From: Campylobacterota bacterium
Lineage (GTDB): Bacteria; Campylobacterota; Campylobacteria; Campylobacterales; Sulfurimonadaceae
Length of the DNA: 64,000 nt
Direction: 5' to 3'
NCBI GenBank assembly: GCA_040752835.1
Contig: JBFMGG010000006.1
Coordinates: forward strand, 124,001-188,000
Each line of letters starts with the position of its first letter. Position 1 is the first letter of the stretch. Below are positions 21 through 8,926 of this stretch, one piece after another. Both the position numbers and the translations under genes were made by a program. The notes under the pieces are model-generated. The model saw only the letters and a list, made by a program, of their open reading frames with translations, searched no databases and was not told the origin of the DNA.

Positions 21-275
21 ATGAATGCATTGGAAATTTTGCAAAAGACACGATTACAGATAGAAGACGACCACAAGTTCGCTCAAGTGTACGATGCGGC
101 GATAGCCGAAGTTGAAGAACTCACAAAGCCAAAAACGTGTGAAACGTGTGAATATTCGGGGTATTTTTCCCCACATGATTCACTTGAATGTTTAAATATT
201 GATTGCAATTTCTATAGCTGTGATGTTGATTTAAATGATGGGTGCAATAAATACAAATCGAAGGGCCCCAAATGA
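21..275 (+). CDS. Small Cys-rich protein of the element
   Basis: An 84-residue protein of unknown function. The first half is a charged helix-like stretch. The second half carries a CxxC pair (CETC), then CLNIDC, a further Cys and GC, ending in a C-x-x-Y-type tail, which suggests a small zinc-binding fold. Its stop overlaps the ParA start in an ATGA, implying translational coupling. Similar Cys patterns occur in two other proteins of the element (2271-2753 and 4829-5038). Confidence 0.6.
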   Translation: MNALEILQKTRLQIEDDHKFAQVYDAAIAEVEELTKPKTCETCEYSGYFSPHDSLECLNIDCNFYSCDVDLNDGCNKYKSKGPK

Positions 276-886
276 ACATCACCCTCGCACACACCAAAGG
301 CGGTGTCGGAAAATCGACCGCCGCATGGCATCTGGCCCATGCATTCAGTCTGATCGGTCCGGTCGAGATCGTCGACATGGACTTCAACCAGACGCTCCAT
401 TACGTCAACATCATGGCGGGTCGACCGTTCACCGTCCATCAGCCGCGCAGCGTCGCAGAGCTGTACGACCTGATCGCCCGCACCACGCACGATGTGACGC
501 TCATCATGGATATCGGAGGCTTCGACAGCGATCTGAACCGTGCGGCGATCCGGCACAGCGACCACGTCGTGATCCCAATCACCCCAGACCGCGTGACCGA
601 GGTGCTCGGGTTCCGGACGTTTGACGCGATCCTCTCCGAACTGGACACCGTCGATACGCATTTCCACGTACTGTTCAACAACGTCCACGCCGCTACCCGC
701 AACTTCGACAAATTCAAAAAAGCGGTCAAGGGATCGCGCTTCACCATCCTGGACAGCGCCATCCGCTCGCGCAAAATCTACTACACCACGATGGGCAACG
801 GTCAGAGCGTTTTCAGCAGCATTGGAAACGCTCTGGCCCAAACCGAAATACTGGAGCTTAGAGATGAACTTAGACGCACTCGATAA
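272..886 (+). CDS. ParA-family partition ATPase
   Basis: A 204-residue deviant Walker-A ATPase. KGGVGKST is at residues 9-16, the A' motif around VDMDF at 34-38, and a Walker B-like LIMD ends near residue 80. Members bind ATP and DNA and move ParB-bound DNA. It is short for the family and has no N-terminal HTH, like the small ParA proteins of plasmids and phages. The ParB-like gene starts inside its 3' end (23-base overlap), the usual parAB arrangement. A role in maintaining an extrachromosomal form of the element is inferred. It could also be a ParA-like orphan with another cargo. Confidence 0.85.
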   Translation: MNITLAHTKGGVGKSTAAWHLAHAFSLIGPVEIVDMDFNQTLHYVNIMAGRPFTVHQPRSVAELYDLIARTTHDVTLIMDIGGFDSDLNRAAIRHSDHVVIPITPDRVTEVLGFRTFDAILSELDTVDTHFHVLFNNVHAATRNFDKFKKAVKGSRFTILDSAIRSRKIYYTTMGNGQSVFSSIGNALAQTEILELRDELRRTR

Positions 887-1679
887 CGCGGTCAGCGAAT
901 CCAAGCCCCGCACTTCCGGCATTACCGATCTGATGGAGATCGAGGTATCGAAGATATACCCAAACCCAGACCAGCCCCGCAAGAACTTCGATCCCGAATC
1001 GCTCGCCGAACTGGCCGAATCGATACGGGGCAAAGGGCTGATGCAGCCGATCGTAGTCGTGCGAAGAAACGGGGGGTGCTACATGATTGTAGCCGGGGAG
1101 CGTCGATATCGCGCACACCTGCTCAACAAGGCAATTACAATCCGAGCGATCGTGTCGGAGCGTGGTGAACTCGACGTTGACGAAATCGCCCTGATCGAAA
1201 ACATCCAGCGCGAGGACCTAACCGACTACGAAATCGCGATGGCGGTCGTGCGGCTGTGGGAAACCGGCAAGTACGATAAAAAACAGGATCTAGCCCGCGC
1301 GATATCCAAACCGCGCTCGTATCTCTCCAAAGCGTTCGGCCTCCTCAACCTCGACCCGGAGATCAGAGCCGACATCGAGGAGAACAAACGCGACACCGGA
1401 CTCTCCGTGCTCGAAGAACTGAGCCGAGTCGAGCCGGAAAAACAGCGCGAGGTCTATGACCGCTACAACGCCGGAGAGATCAAGAGGGATGAGTTCAAAG
1501 AGGCGGCGAAGCCGAAAGCAGAAAAGCCGATCGAACCTAAAAAAATAAAAGTCCAAAAAGAGGTTGCTGTCACACAAGGTGATGGTCGTTTGCTTTTTGG
1601 CGGGGATGATTTTCACCTGTTATTCCGGGAAGTGCAACCGTGGAAGAGATACAAAATCACCATCGAGGAGATCGGATGA
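864..1679 (+). CDS. ParB-family DNA-binding protein
   Basis: A 271-residue protein. Start ATG 864 has GGAG at 853-856; the frame is open upstream but that part lies inside parA. The ParB/Srx domain is seen as PNPDQPRKNF near residues 34-42 and the CTP-binding GERRYRAH at 78-85. An HTH region follows at about 120-160, where the LARAISKPRSYLSKA stretch fits ParB recognition helices. A Lys-rich linker near 218-235 precedes a short C-terminal domain. It should bind a parS-like site and act with the ParA upstream. I did not locate a convincing parS repeat in the window. Confidence 0.85.
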   Translation: MNLDALDNAVSESKPRTSGITDLMEIEVSKIYPNPDQPRKNFDPESLAELAESIRGKGLMQPIVVVRRNGGCYMIVAGERRYRAHLLNKAITIRAIVSERGELDVDEIALIENIQREDLTDYEIAMAVVRLWETGKYDKKQDLARAISKPRSYLSKAFGLLNLDPEIRADIEENKRDTGLSVLEELSRVEPEKQREVYDRYNAGEIKRDEFKEAAKPKAEKPIEPKKIKVQKEVAVTQGDGRLLFGGDDFHLLFREVQPWKRYKITIEEIG

Positions 1680-1831
1680 AGTACAGATCTATCAGCATCG
1701 GTGAAGCGGTGCGAATCCTCGAAGAAATAGAAAAGGAGAAACGATGTTTATTGCTTGGCAAGTCATTGAAACCAATTTTGAGAAGCTCCTCGATTGGTGT
1801 GAAAAATACGATCTCATGTAAGGCGGCGTAG
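1676..1831 (+). CDS. Small ORF after parB
   Basis: A 51-residue frame starting in an ATGA overlap with the parB stop. The N-terminal half (ISIGEAVRILEEIEKEKR) looks like a plausible helix, but the C-terminal part overlaps another small frame at 1744-1821 that has a better ribosome-binding site. Only one of the two may be real, or this one may be a remnant. No family recognised. Confidence 0.3.
   Translation: MKYRSISIGEAVRILEEIEKEKRCLLLGKSLKPILRSSSIGVKNTISCKAA
1744..1821 (+). CDS. 25-residue mini-ORF with good RBS
   Basis: A 25-residue frame (FIAWQVIETNFEKLL core) with AAGGAG ending 5 bases before ATG 1744, the strongest ribosome-binding site in this interval. It overlaps the 1676-1831 frame. 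The sequence is amphipathic and aromatic. Function unknown; it could be a leader peptide for the HTH gene that follows. Confidence 0.3.
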   Translation: MFIAWQVIETNFEKLLDWCEKYDLM

Positions 1832-2051
1832 ATGGATGAGTTTGTGTCTGTTGCGGAAATGATCGAGCGGATCAAAGATATCACTTGCAAACACAAGAGT
1901 GGTGTTTTTTTTGACAATGACGTCGCCAATTTGTTAAATATGAGGGGTAATGCTCTCGCATCTGCAAAAAAACGAAATCACCCCCCCCCTTAAACAAATC
2001 ATCAAATTCTGTCAACGCACAGGACTTGACCCCATGAAAATACTTTTTTAG
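1832..2051 (+). pseudogene. Phage-repressor-like HTH gene interrupted at a C9 tract (possibly phase-variable)
   Basis: From ATG 1832 the frame as given stops at 1991-1993, just after nine Cs (1981-1989), giving 53 residues ending HPPP. Removing one C makes a 72-residue protein ending LDPMKILF at TAG 2049-2051, directly before the GGAG of the next gene. That longer product fits the N-terminal HTH domain of phage CI-type repressors: an FFDNDVANLL helix, then ASAKKRN, then LKQIIKFCQRTGLDP, which parallels the family's K-R-N and D-F-C motifs. A T8 run also lies inside the gene (1905-1912). It is either an OFF phase variant, a decayed gene or a homopolymer sequencing error. Confidence 0.6.
1981..1989 (+). 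repeat. C9 homopolymer tract
   Basis: Nine consecutive Cs inside the HTH gene. In Campylobacter and Helicobacter, G/C tracts of this length are known slipped-strand contingency loci. With nine Cs the gene is out of frame; with eight or eleven it would be open to 2051. Confidence 0.9.
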
Positions 2052-2059
2052 GAGCAGAC

Positions 2060-2188
2060 ATGGAAGACCAACTCATAGGAGCCGCGCTGATCATATCCGT
2101 TATGGCCGTGATCGGAATATTATATGGATCAAAACGTAGATGGGGTGAAAACGCTCCAGGTGCGAAATATTCGAAGGCAAAAAAATGA
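2060..2188 (+). CDS. Tiny single-pass membrane protein
   Basis: A 42-residue protein, ATG 2060 preceded by GGAG at 2051-2054. Residues about 5-23 form one hydrophobic helix (LIGAALIISVMAVIGILY), followed by a basic tail. Its stop overlaps the next start in an ATGA. Function unknown; small membrane proteins of this kind are common in phage accessory regions. Confidence 0.5.
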   Translation: MEDQLIGAALIISVMAVIGILYGSKRRWGENAPGAKYSKAKK

Positions 2189-4828: not shown

Positions 4829-5038
4829 ATGCCAAGAATACCAAAAAAATGCCTTACCTGTGGATTCTCTGATTTTGCCGACGACTATCTTGAGGAGCTG
4901 AAGTGTTATCACCCGGCACGGTGTATTGACGCTGGGCTGACCCAGCAAGACGGAGTGCATGCTGCAGAAGATGATATCTGCCCTCTGTACGTCACATCTG
5001 AAGCTGTAAAAGTGGATGCCAAAGCGGGGTGCTGGTAA
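4829..5038 (+). CDS. Small Cys-rich protein of the element
   Basis: A 69-residue protein starting at ATG 4829 behind AAAGGA. It has CLTC near the start, then LKCYHPARC and a C-terminal ICPLY, giving a CxxC...C...C...C-x-x-Y layout similar to the proteins at 21-275 and 2271-2753. A zinc-binding role is inferred. Its TAA overlaps the next ATG. Confidence 0.55.
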   Translation: MPRIPKKCLTCGFSDFADDYLEELKCYHPARCIDAGLTQQDGVHAAEDDICPLYVTSEAVKVDAKAGCW

Positions 5039-5241
5039 TGCGCCGGATGACCCACGGAGAAGCCTACGTTTTCAAACGCGAAAACATCGACTTCCGCAAA
5101 AACTTCATCCAGATACAAAAAACGCTGGGCAGACTCCCCCCTCCGATGAGCCGCCCGGACGCCATCGCCTACTACGGAAAAAAGATCAGAGACTACTTCG
5201 CCAAGGAATTGGGGAGTCATATCGAAAAGGAAACGAAATGA
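5038..5241 (+). CDS. Small hypothetical protein
   Basis: A 67-residue basic protein starting at ATG 5038, overlapping the stop of the upstream gene (an in-frame GTG at 5029 is an alternative). No family recognised. Features include a helix-forming C-terminal half (SRPDAIAYYGKKIRDYFAKE). Its stop overlaps the start of the Lys/Arg-rich gene in an ATGA. Confidence 0.5.
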   Translation: MRRMTHGEAYVFKRENIDFRKNFIQIQKTLGRLPPPMSRPDAIAYYGKKIRDYFAKELGSHIEKETK

Positions 5242-6134
5242 GTGCAAAACCAGCATTTACCTACGCACAGTACCTCAAATCAGTCGGCGGAGTCGCCGGT
5301 ATGACCGAACAGCAGTTCAACGAGGCGTTCGGCATAACTCCGGATGATGTGGTTCCACCGCTCCAGATCACCCCGAAGCGATCAGTATCGTCGTCGATCG
5401 ACAACCATGCCAAAATTGCCGCAGAGGCAAAAGAGCGCCGGAGAAAAAAGCCCGCAGCGGCCAAGGTTCCGAAAGAGCCGAAGCCGAAGAAAGACCATGT
5501 CGTGCAAGTCCACGAGATGATCAAAAAGCCGAAGAAAGAAAAAGTTCCAAAAGAGCCAAAGCCGAAAAAGGAAAAGGTCCCAAAAGAGCCGAAGCCGAAG
5601 TTCCGACCCCGCGGGAAATACTCAACACTATCCGAAGAAGAGCGAAGACTGATTCGCAACGCGCGGCAGAGAGAATACCGACGCAAACGCATGGAGTCCG
5701 GTGCGCCAAAGAGGACCTATACCGAGGAGCAACGGATCCGTCAGCGGGAATACTCAAAACAGTATTACCTCTCCAAGAAACAGGAGAACCCGGACTATGT
5801 CCGCCAAAAGCAGAAGGAACTCAGGGAGCGCATGAAGGCGGAGGGAAGATCGAACTACAAAAAAGTCCCGCCGGAACTACGCAAGAAAGCGGACTTCTCC
5901 TCGATGACCCTGGAACAGATCTCCGAGCACAAAAAGCGGAAGCAAAAAGAAGCCCAAGCGCGGCACTACCAGAAACACAAAGCAGTGCTCAACCAGAAGC
6001 GCAAACTGTACAAGTCCTCCTCGACCTACAAATCCAAGGAAGCGACGAAGGCGAGAGAACGCAGAGCGGCGAAGAAGTCACCCGAAGCGACTTCGACACC
6101 GCCGACGAGTGGTACGACTACCACCAGGCAATGA
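5238..6134 (+). CDS. Lys/Arg-rich repetitive protein A
   Basis: A 298-residue, very basic protein of unknown function starting in an ATGA overlap. It has a short non-basic head (about 1-45), a segment of about 50 residues nearly identical to the paralogue at 7023-7550, a run of KVPKEPKPKK-type repeats (about 75-118), and a long region of repeated basic helices (RQREYRRKR, RQREYSKQYY, RQKQKELRERMK types). This suggests a DNA- or RNA-binding, perhaps packaging or masking, protein. The frame ends in a Thr-rich tail that looks non-native; the overlapping frame there is better protein-like. It lies directly upstream of the adenine methyltransferase. Confidence 0.6.
   Translation: MSAKPAFTYAQYLKSVGGVAGMTEQQFNEAFGITPDDVVPPLQITPKRSVSSSIDNHAKIAAEAKERRRKKPAAAKVPKEPKPKKDHVVQVHEMIKKPKKEKVPKEPKPKKEKVPKEPKPKFRPRGKYSTLSEEERRLIRNARQREYRRKRMESGAPKRTYTEEQRIRQREYSKQYYLSKKQENPDYVRQKQKELRERMKAEGRSNYKKVPPELRKKADFSSMTLEQISEHKKRKQKEAQARHYQKHKAVLNQKRKLYKSSSTYKSKEATKARERRAAKKSPEATSTPPTSGTTTTRQ
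5352..5540 (+). repeat. Duplicated coding block, copy 1 (partner 7141-7329)
   Basis: About 190 bases here and at 7141-7329 are nearly identical, covering the ITPKRSVSSSIDNHAKIAAE segment to the HVVQVHEM region of both Lys/Arg-rich proteins. Flanking sequence in the two genes is unrelated or much more diverged, pointing to duplication or gene conversion of a module. Confidence 0.85.
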
Positions 6135-6155
6135 GAATATTGGAACAGATAAGGA
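6089..6155 (+). repeat. Duplicated 3' block, copy 1 (partner 7505-7571)
   Basis: A 67-base block shared almost exactly with 7505-7571, spanning the last codons of each Lys/Arg-rich gene, the TGA and the ribosome-binding region of the next gene. In the -1 frame both copies encode a DFDTADEW-x-DYHQAMRILEQI peptide. In copy 1 that frame stops in an ATGA overlap with the methyltransferase start at 6163. Confidence 0.85.
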
Positions 6156-6162
6156 GAACAGC

Positions 6163-7008
6163 ATGAGTAAACCGACACGACCACCGCTCAGATACCACGG
6201 CGGGAAGTGGCGCGTGGCTGACAGGATCATCGAACTCATGCCCCCACACATGACATACGTCGAACCATTCGGGGGGGGTGCTGGTGTGCTGTTGCGCAAA
6301 TCGCGAAGCAAAAACGAGATCTACAACGACCTCGACGGCGATATCGTCAATGTGTTCAGAGTACTCCGTGACCCGGTTGATTCTGCGAAACTCATTCAGC
6401 TGCTAGAACTGACACCGTTCGCTCGCGAAGAGATGAAGCTCGGTTGGGAAGATACTGACGATCCTGTAGAGCAGGCTCGCCGATGTATCGTCAGATCCCA
6501 TATGGGGTTCGGATCGGCCGGTGCCACAAAAGGACGCACCGGTTTCCGTGGGCTTGATCGATGCGAAGCATCTTTCAGCGCTCCGGCGAAACAATGGGAT
6601 GCCCTGCCGGATCACCTTCATGCGATCATCACACGTATGAAAGGGGTGGTCATCGAAAATATGGAAGCGGAGCGTCTGATCGATACCGTCGACCATGAAG
6701 GTACCTTTTTCTACGTCGACCCTCCTTATCTTCCTGAGACGCGGTCTTCTATGGATTCTGGTACAAAGTACTATCGCCACGAAATGACCGCAGAAGACCA
6801 TGAGCAGCTGCTAAAAAAACTTCTGCAGGTGAACGGGATGGTATTACTGTCCGGGTATGACTCCGATCTCTACAACGACATGCTCAAAGACTGGCGTATG
6901 ATCAGCTTCGATGCAAGAGCATCTTCCAAAGCAGGTACAGTCATTCGAAAAGAGTGCGTCTGGATCTCTCCGAACGCTGAACAGCCGAATTTATTCAATA
7001 TTTGGTGA
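6163..7008 (+). CDS. Solitary D12-class N6-adenine DNA methyltransferase (Dam-like)
   Basis: A 281-residue enzyme transferring methyl from SAM to adenine N6; start ATG 6163 has AAGGAG 7 bases upstream. The D12-family N-terminal YHGGKWRVA (11-19) and EPFGGGAGV (34-42) SAM-binding motifs and the catalytic DPPY at 186-189 are intact, and the length is normal. GATC or a related site is the likely target but cannot be proven from sequence. The Gly motif is written with a G8 tract (6271-6278) that could make the gene phase-variable; as given it is in frame. No partner nuclease is present. Confidence 0.9.
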   Translation: MSKPTRPPLRYHGGKWRVADRIIELMPPHMTYVEPFGGGAGVLLRKSRSKNEIYNDLDGDIVNVFRVLRDPVDSAKLIQLLELTPFAREEMKLGWEDTDDPVEQARRCIVRSHMGFGSAGATKGRTGFRGLDRCEASFSAPAKQWDALPDHLHAIITRMKGVVIENMEAERLIDTVDHEGTFFYVDPPYLPETRSSMDSGTKYYRHEMTAEDHEQLLKKLLQVNGMVLLSGYDSDLYNDMLKDWRMISFDARASSKAGTVIRKECVWISPNAEQPNLFNIW

Positions 7009-7022
7009 AAAAAGGATACGAA

Positions 7023-7550
7023 ATGAGCCCAAACCCGAAATTTACCTACGAAACCTACTGCGCCCAGATGCGCGAGCGCGGGCAGAAACCGATGATCCGC
7101 CGCGACTTCGACGCGATGATGGGATACGACCGCACGGGGCAACCGCCTCTACAGATCACCCCGAAGCGATCAGTATCGTCGTCGATCGACAACCATGCCA
7201 AAATCGCCGCAGAGGTAAAAGAGCGCCGGAGAAAAAAGCCCGAATCGGCCAAGGATCCGAAAGAGCCAAAGCCGAAAACAGATCATGTCGTGCAAGTCCA
7301 CGAGATGGTCAAAAAGCCGAAAAAACCGCGTCTCACTTTGGAACAAAAACGGGAGTGGAAACGCAACTACATGAAGAAATGGCGCAAGGACAACCCGAAA
7401 GCATCTTACGAGAGCGTGAAGCGATGGCGGGAGAACAACCCGGAACAGCATCGCAACTACAACCGAGAATGGAAGCGGAACCGATCGAAGAAGTTACCAG
7501 AGACGACTTCGACACCGCAGACGAGTGGCACGACTACCACCAGGCAATGA
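7023..7550 (+). CDS. Lys/Arg-rich repetitive protein B
   Basis: A 175-residue basic protein, paralogue of 5238-6134. Its head (about 1-43) differs. The next 50 or so residues nearly match the paralogue, and the C-terminal half has its own basic repeats (EWKRNYMKKWRKDNP, VKRWRENNPEQHRNYNREWKRN). The latter resemble the basic N-x(2)-P-x(3)-R spacing often seen near phage HNH proteins, but no HNH motif is present. ATG 7023 follows AAAGGA. Nucleic-acid binding is inferred. Confidence 0.6.
   Translation: MSPNPKFTYETYCAQMRERGQKPMIRRDFDAMMGYDRTGQPPLQITPKRSVSSSIDNHAKIAAEVKERRRKKPESAKDPKEPKPKTDHVVQVHEMVKKPKKPRLTLEQKREWKRNYMKKWRKDNPKASYESVKRWRENNPEQHRNYNREWKRNRSKKLPETTSTPQTSGTTTTRQ
7141..7329 (+). repeat. 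Duplicated coding block, copy 2 (partner 5352-5540)
   Basis: Second copy of the near-identical block shared by the two Lys/Arg-rich genes. The few differences are mostly single substitutions and no indel is needed to align the copies. Confidence 0.85.
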
Positions 7551-8276: not shown

Positions 8277-8568
8277 CCGCCTCCGCAATCTATCCGGTCA
8301 GACGATAACCGTCACCGCAGAGTATTGCAGGGAAGCCAAAAACCACCCAGATTCGCACCTGATCCGAAGGGTTCAGAACGAAGAAGGCCGCCACCTGTGC
8401 GACCACCTGTGGATCGAATGCAAAATCAAAAAGCCACCATCCTACGGCGACACGGTGATCGTCACCGGCGAAGTCGTCAAATACGGAAAATTCTCTTACA
8501 AAAAACAGCTTACCGAAGACTACGGACTGGGATACGTCCGGTGCTCGGTAATACGAAAGGAACCATGA
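8257..8568 (+). CDS. Small hypothetical protein (possible OB-fold)
   Basis: A 103-residue protein with GTG start at 8257 behind GAGGAG, overlapping the ASCH-like gene by 20 bases. Alternating beta-strand-like stretches (LSGQTITVTAEYC, DTVIVTGEVVKYGKF) suggest a small beta-barrel of OB type, which would fit a nucleic-acid-binding phage protein. This is a fold guess only. Its stop overlaps the next start in an ATGA. Confidence 0.5.
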   Translation: MSAIPRNRLRNLSGQTITVTAEYCREAKNHPDSHLIRRVQNEEGRHLCDHLWIECKIKKPPSYGDTVIVTGEVVKYGKFSYKKQLTEDYGLGYVRCSVIRKEP

Positions 8569-8750
8569 TGACAAAGCTTATCACATACCGCGATATTGAA
8601 AAAATCTACGGACTGAAAAAAAACACCCTTACGAAACTCTACATGAAGGGAGAATTCATACCGGCGATCAAAGTTGGAAACCGAAATTATTTCGAGGTGG
8701 AAAAGCTTGAAAAGTGGATTGAATCTAAAAAAGTTGATATCGCATCGTGA
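8565..8750 (+). CDS. Excisionase-like HTH protein
   Basis: A 61-residue protein beginning at ATG 8565 (a second ATG follows at once). The layout YRDIEKIYGLKKNTLTKLYM, then IPAIKVGNRNYFEVEKLEKWIE is the winged-helix MerR/Xis-type DNA-binding domain of phage excisionases and AlpA-like regulators. It is the last gene before tRNA-Leu, where Xis commonly sits. It could regulate excision together with an integrase outside the window. Confidence 0.7.
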   Translation: MMTKLITYRDIEKIYGLKKNTLTKLYMKGEFIPAIKVGNRNYFEVEKLEKWIESKKVDIAS

Positions 8751-8781: not shown

Positions 8782-8839
8782 ACGAATTCTTAAAAATTTG
8801 AGTGATTGTTGCTAGGCTCTGAAAGTGCCTATTTTACGA

Positions 8840-8926
8840 TGGTGCGGTCGAGAGGACTTGAACCTCCACGACATTTCTGCCACTAGAACCTGAATCTAGC
8901 GTGTCTACCAATTTCACCACGACCGC
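8840..8926 (-). tRNA. tRNA-Leu (CAG)
   Basis: An 87-nt class II tRNA with encoded CCA (8840-8842 on the + strand reads TGG). The acceptor stem GCGGTCG pairs with CGACCGC, the anticodon loop is TTCAGGT between CTAGA and TCTAG, and there is a long variable arm and GGTTCAAGTCC T-loop. It is the probable integration target of the element, whose genes lie at its 3' end. It is co-directional with argB just upstream. Confidence 0.95.

Follow-up and report, generated by a model that had tools for sequence, protein, structure and literature searches.

The analysed window, a 64,000-nucleotide stretch of a Sulfuricurvum genome (G000:C6:124001-188000; negative coordinates lie to its left), contains a small helix-turn-helix (HTH) gene that belongs to a complete, siphophage-like temperate prophage of about 40.6 kb integrated at tRNA-Leu. 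An integrase-like ORF at the left end of the prophage (-31549) is followed by minus-strand genes for tail, head, and terminase and then by an S24-type CI repressor, a small divergent ORF, ParA, ParB, the HTH gene, methyltransferase-like genes, and an excisionase-like HTH gene. The CI repressor, at window -1394 to about -2155, is intact (phrog_4, 8.5e-33). The features around the HTH gene and at the prophage ends are the following:

Window -31747 to -31686 (G000:C6 about 92253-92314), no strand: attL copy (repeat match)
272-886, plus strand: ParA-like partition ATPase (phrog_164, 4.1e-19)
864-1679, plus strand: ParB-like partition protein (phrog_4715, 1.4e-37)
1744-1821, plus strand: 25-aa ORF directly 5' of the HTH gene, conserved in the sibling prophage of genome G006 (alignment)
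1820-1826, plus strand: AAGGCGG, Shine-Dalgarno-like, for the HTH gene (sequence; alignment with G006)
1832-1993, plus strand: truncated frame of 53 aa that covers the first three helices of a CI-type HTH and closes with HPPP before the stop (frame analysis, fold model)
1966-1972, plus strand: A7 tract encoding part of a conserved KKR (alignment)
1981-1989, plus strand: frame-breaking C9 tract, the only C/G run of at least nine found in a predicted gene of the genome (genome-wide run count)
1990-2051, plus strand: frameshifted 3' half with helices 4-5, ending in LKQIIKFCQRTGLDPMKILF and a stop, conserved in phage relatives (homology, fold model)
2050-2054, plus strand: AGGAG, ribosome-binding site for the 42-aa ORF at 2060, partly overlapped by the restored stop (sequence)
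2060-2188, plus strand: small membrane-peptide-like ORF of 42 aa, conserved in sibling prophages (frame listing, alignment)
8568-8750, plus strand: excisionase-like / AlpA-type HTH near the right prophage end (phrog_66, 6.6e-7)
8838-8899, no strand: attR, a repeat of about 60 bp inside tRNA-Leu (repeat match)

The run at 1981-1989 consists of exactly nine Cs in the assembled sequence, and the frame that opens at 1832 terminates with HPPP at 1993, precisely as the original prediction had stated. With one C fewer (C8), the frame extends to 72 aa with the C-terminus NHPPLKQIIKFCQRTGLDPMKILF and reaches a TAG stop (2049-2051) that lies within the AGGAG serving the ATG of the next gene at 2060; this merging of the two signals had also been anticipated. 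The codons of the C8 reading are CAC CCC CCC CTT AAA, and the C9 mRNA reads CAC CCC CCC CCU UAA. As in a contingency locus, the length of the tract sets whether a full-length (C8) or a truncated (C9) product is encoded. When the HTH gene is in frame, translation of the 42-aa peptide may be coupled to it.

AlphaFold2 models the C8 reading with a mean pLDDT of 89 as five helices (residues 7-21, 28-34, 39-48, 53-63, and 67-71), the last two of which the C9 stop would remove. Among the Foldseek matches listed, the one with the best TM score is a phage CI repressor (TM 0.77, rmsd 1.7 over 71 columns), and phage 186 CI matches with a TM of 0.66; the model supports the proposal that the restored protein is a CI-type HTH from end to end. 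The restored protein itself has no Pfam match at E<=1, its best PHROG match is weak (phrog_638, E 0.0032), and a sequence-profile search of solved structures gave no meaningful match. The family model Phage_CI_repr (PF07022) matches 25 of 34 aligned relatives (best 1e-7). A C-terminal oligomerisation or self-cleavage domain is absent, as the restored frame stops at 72 aa and the next gene encodes a membrane-like peptide.

Stand-alone relatives that span the junction were found by tblastn and profile searches in ten Mu-like phages and at one chromosomal locus. Of the phage relatives (77-108 aa), four belong to Sulfuricurvum itself (three viral contigs and G007), three to other genera of its family (G439, G491, and G501), and three to a second family within the order (G309, G420, and G189); where their neighbours were listed, they sit before a gene that we take to be DUF3164-like. 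The chromosomal relative, in G116, has 70 aa. At L113 4996-5208, a chromosomal stand-alone CI-type HTH gene of 70 aa lies beside a dnaX-like gene, with no evident phage. The relatives end at a distance of a few to about 30 residues from the C-terminus of the window protein. Since the relatives stand alone, the idea that the gene is the N-terminal part of a full-length CI that had been split was rejected. Searches for a second copy of the gene carrying the tract, for another copy of the tract (DNA pattern search of viral contigs), and for similar DNA in phages and plasmids were all negative.

Four residues (D28, L35, R48, and C60) are invariant in the alignment of twelve sequences; the tract lies between R48 and C60. 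On either side of the tract, comparison with seven relatives gave synonymous differences close to saturation and few replacement differences (pN 0.23-0.40 versus pS 0.68-0.89 downstream), and the part past the tract is usually better conserved than the upstream part. These alignments show purifying selection on both halves of the gene, which suggests that the break is either recent or reversible, or else an assembly error. An orthologue comparison had been named as a refuting test, and in the relatives the downstream part is neither absent nor non-coding. With the 3' half in frame in all ten phage relatives and the chromosomal one, the view of a real gene with a recent or reversible break was upheld.

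The relatives also indicate where the frame was shifted and which tract length is in frame. A shift in the A7 tract (1966-1972) could restore the frame as well but was rejected: the KKR just upstream of the C tract is conserved in the upstream frame, which places the shift in the C tract. The linker region reads IKRDRPPLKEILLFC in G439, IKRDSPPLKEIMLFC in G501, and KKRNHPPLKQIIKFC in the window gene, so that KRDRPPLKEI and KRDSPPLKEI in two relatives stand against KRNHPPLKQI here. Their PPLK linkers match the C8 length and are coded without a C tract (CCA CCT CTA in G439, CCA CCG TTA in G501), which argues that C8 is the in-frame length, as predicted, and that the tract is peculiar to this phage. 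Many full-length S24-type relatives share the linker length, with KKRNKIPFNELLDFC, and the nearest Sulfuricurvum relatives have one residue more in the linker than the C8 reading. A length of eleven Cs would be allowed by linker length alone but is disfavoured, as the relatives with PPLK have the C8 length. Judged from this alignment, the one-C-shorter reading is the true ancestral frame. An internal start at 1950, which would make the tail a separate peptide of 33 aa, is disfavoured by a candidate ribosome-binding site that lies too close to it. None of the 11 relatives has a C run longer than three, and the tract is not maintained in orthologues. One Mu-like relative (L077 4992-5225) has a G8 run at another place in the gene, in frame.

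A sibling prophage in G006 occupies the same tRNA-Leu, has an integrase that is 97% identical, and shares long stretches of about 88% DNA identity with the window prophage. It lacks exactly the HTH gene; in the alignment, its AAGGCGG precedes the ATG of the 42-aa peptide. By tblastn, the HTH gene was likewise not found in five other ParB-bearing viral contigs and a stretch of G027 (siblings L081-L085 and L109). By its distribution among these prophages, the HTH gene is an accessory one-gene cassette between parAB and the small membrane-peptide gene. The proposed role as a lysogeny switch is not supported: the prophage has its own S24-type CI, and the sibling occupies the tRNA-Leu site although it lacks the gene, which is apparently unnecessary for the lysogeny of this phage. 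A copy-number switch had been suggested as the other possibility, and the sole pointer to it is the proximity to parAB.

Other parts of the prophage also differ from, or recur in, its siblings. The region from window -2155 to -1271 and its counterpart in the sibling (G006:C41:198205-199253) encode repressors that are unrelated to each other, although they occupy the immunity position of two prophages with near-identical integrases at one and the same tRNA-Leu; the small divergent ORF beside the repressor is homologous between the two prophages (48% identity). ParA and ParB (272-1679) occur here in an integrated prophage with an integrase and att sites and are common to the sibling prophages and viral contigs; the parAB prophage can possibly persist also as a plasmid. 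A G8 tract (6271-6278) lies in frame at an FGGGAG motif of a Dam-like methyltransferase ORF (6109-7008). DNA methyltransferases are classic phase-variable genes; this tract may simply encode glycines. The ORFs at 5016-6134 and 7002-7550 have a long segment in common (LQITPKRSVSSSIDNHAKIAAE), and G006 matches parts of both, which suggests an internal duplication or a swapped module.

Long C/G runs are scarce in the genome and the genus. The genome has 24 runs of at least eight, 21 of exactly eight, two of nine, and one of ten. Of the three longest, one is the C9 of the HTH gene, the C10 belongs to no predicted ORF, and the other C9 is part of a tRNA-Met. Since runs of eight are common and longer ones are so few, the change from C8 to C9 is likely to have been a single step. 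The 41 Sulfuricurvum genomes examined have about one to two long C/G tracts each, and among 20 sampled tracts, 12 lie in or resemble the 3' ends of tRNA-Met, five are in ORFs whose frame stays open with nine, and the remaining three are not in ORFs. Many Sulfuricurvum genomes have a C9 close to the 3' terminus of tRNA-Met, as at L039 3093-3169 and comparable loci, and this one type of run constitutes the majority of the sampled long C/G runs. By contrast, Campylobacter upsaliensis has 22 varying tracts, and the contingency tracts in Campylobacter genes are mostly runs of G when read along the coding strand (PMC539331). The data from Sulfuricurvum therefore do not support a general contingency system, nor do they support the precedent of poly-G/C slippage in Campylobacterota, to which the original prediction had appealed, for a coding-strand C tract that no relative keeps. 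What survives of that prediction is the gene, its frame and fold, the C8 state, and the recent or reversible break; its regulatory part reaches beyond the evidence.

The locus is best explained, with a probability of roughly 0.6, as a knock-out by slippage that is in principle reversible and that hit an accessory, stand-alone CI-type HTH cassette whose C tract was not evidently selected as a switch. The working form would have had eight Cs, and polymerase slippage would have inserted one more. The sequenced copy would then make a 53-aa fragment without helices 4-5 and hence be off. The downstream half still looks selected, which suggests that the break is recent, and the tract, found in no relative, is apparently young. 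Reverse slippage could repair the frame, as is expected from the tract itself. A single slippage event is the simplest account.

Permanent decay, in which a dispensable gene is being lost with the C9 as its first lesion and without reversion in practice, overlaps with this explanation and differs from it only in whether reversion matters. The absence of the gene from the sibling and the lack of conservation of the tract favour decay, which we nevertheless consider somewhat unlikely, as no second lesion was found in the 220 bp and a one-base slip in a run of nine Cs is inherently revertible.

It is unlikely that the tract is a selected phase-variable switch, fluctuating in lysogens between eight (on) and nine (off) and thereby controlling an early regulator and the coupled small gene that follows. 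The gene is clean except for the tract, and a phase-variable gene would look alike. The tract is the longest coding C/G tract in the genome, prone to slippage, and exactly one base off the ancestral frame of an otherwise undamaged gene whose two halves are both under purifying selection; the stop of the C8 reading adjoins the following gene's ribosome-binding site; and CCC is the rarest proline codon in the prophage (13%), which makes CCC CCC unusual. However, no relative has the C tract, the sibling prophage lacks the gene, the genus has no repertoire of poly-G/C tracts, the preference of Campylobacter for G on the coding strand is not followed, and the gene class is unlike the usual surface and restriction-modification targets.

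An error of sequencing or assembly, with a true genome of eight Cs and an intact, expressed gene, is possible but not favoured, and we regard it as quite improbable. A C9 is the type of run most often miscalled, and the rest of the gene is intact. However, the sequence around the locus is of high quality: in a local comparison of about 102 kb, none of 97 ORFs with a counterpart in G006 is split by a frameshift, the reverse comparison gave one split that resembles a spurious antisense ORF, and most of the about 70 homopolymers of at least seven in these 102 kb lie in intact ORFs. Recoding, by which the C9 mRNA would still give the full-length protein through RNA polymerase slippage or a +1 ribosomal frameshift at CCC-C before UAA, is very improbable: tRNA-Pro is prone to such shifts at CCC-C (PMC4519876, PMC7803779), and a +1 shift in CAC CCC CCC CCU UAA, with CCC-C beside the stop, yields exactly the C8 protein, but the motif is absent from every relative, so that there is no conserved recoding site, and low efficiency is to be expected from the general literature unless m1G37 is lost.

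It is doubtful that a temperate phage of an environmental, non-pathogenic campylobacterotal host sets one of its early HTH regulators through slippage in a poly-C tract and that phage regulation thereby differs between lysogens that are genetically nearly identical. Simple-repeat phase variation chiefly concerns surface and restriction genes of host-associated bacteria; if the switching were true, the known cases would come to include a free-living sulfur oxidiser and a regulator of its phage. Read simply as a knock-out, the gene still defines a family of stand-alone CI-type HTH proteins that Mu-like phages carry within this bacterial family, and it shows the transfer of one such gene, as a cassette by itself, to an unrelated phage that integrates at a tRNA gene.

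As in the poly-G/C contingency loci of Campylobacter and Helicobacter, homopolymer length sets the reading frame of the gene; unlike in these loci, the tract has C on the coding strand, is alone in its genome, and is absent from relatives. Literature searches turned up no clear earlier case of a phage repressor switched by a homopolymer. The closest named phage by large terminase is Sulfurimonas phage SNW-1 (OP810509; 72% identity); a search of the sequence collection to which SNW-1 belongs gave no match to the small HTH protein in this phage, and partition genes are not mentioned in its published text. With CI-type HTH proteins (PF07022, e.g., phage 186 CI), the window protein shares five helices, the KKRN-x-x-P linker, and an invariant cysteine before helix 5, whereas it has neither an oligomerisation nor an S24 domain, stands alone, and falls below the Pfam cutoff. 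The stand-alone HTH genes of Mu-like phages (L075-L078, L139, L140, and L142; L047, L048, and L051) resemble it over the full length (35-53% identity), and most end within a few residues of the window protein, with LDPMKLLF before the stop in those of Sulfuricurvum; unlike the window gene, they are intact, none has a C tract, and they are located in Mu-like early operons, between the transposition genes and the DUF3164-like gene. By analogy of position only, they recall Cro/Ner-like small phage regulators, which are also small single-domain HTH proteins of the phage early region. A difference is that Ner is the product of the first gene of the Mu early operon. Judging from position and fold, the small HTH protein of the Mu-like early operons most likely damps or times early transcription in a similar manner.
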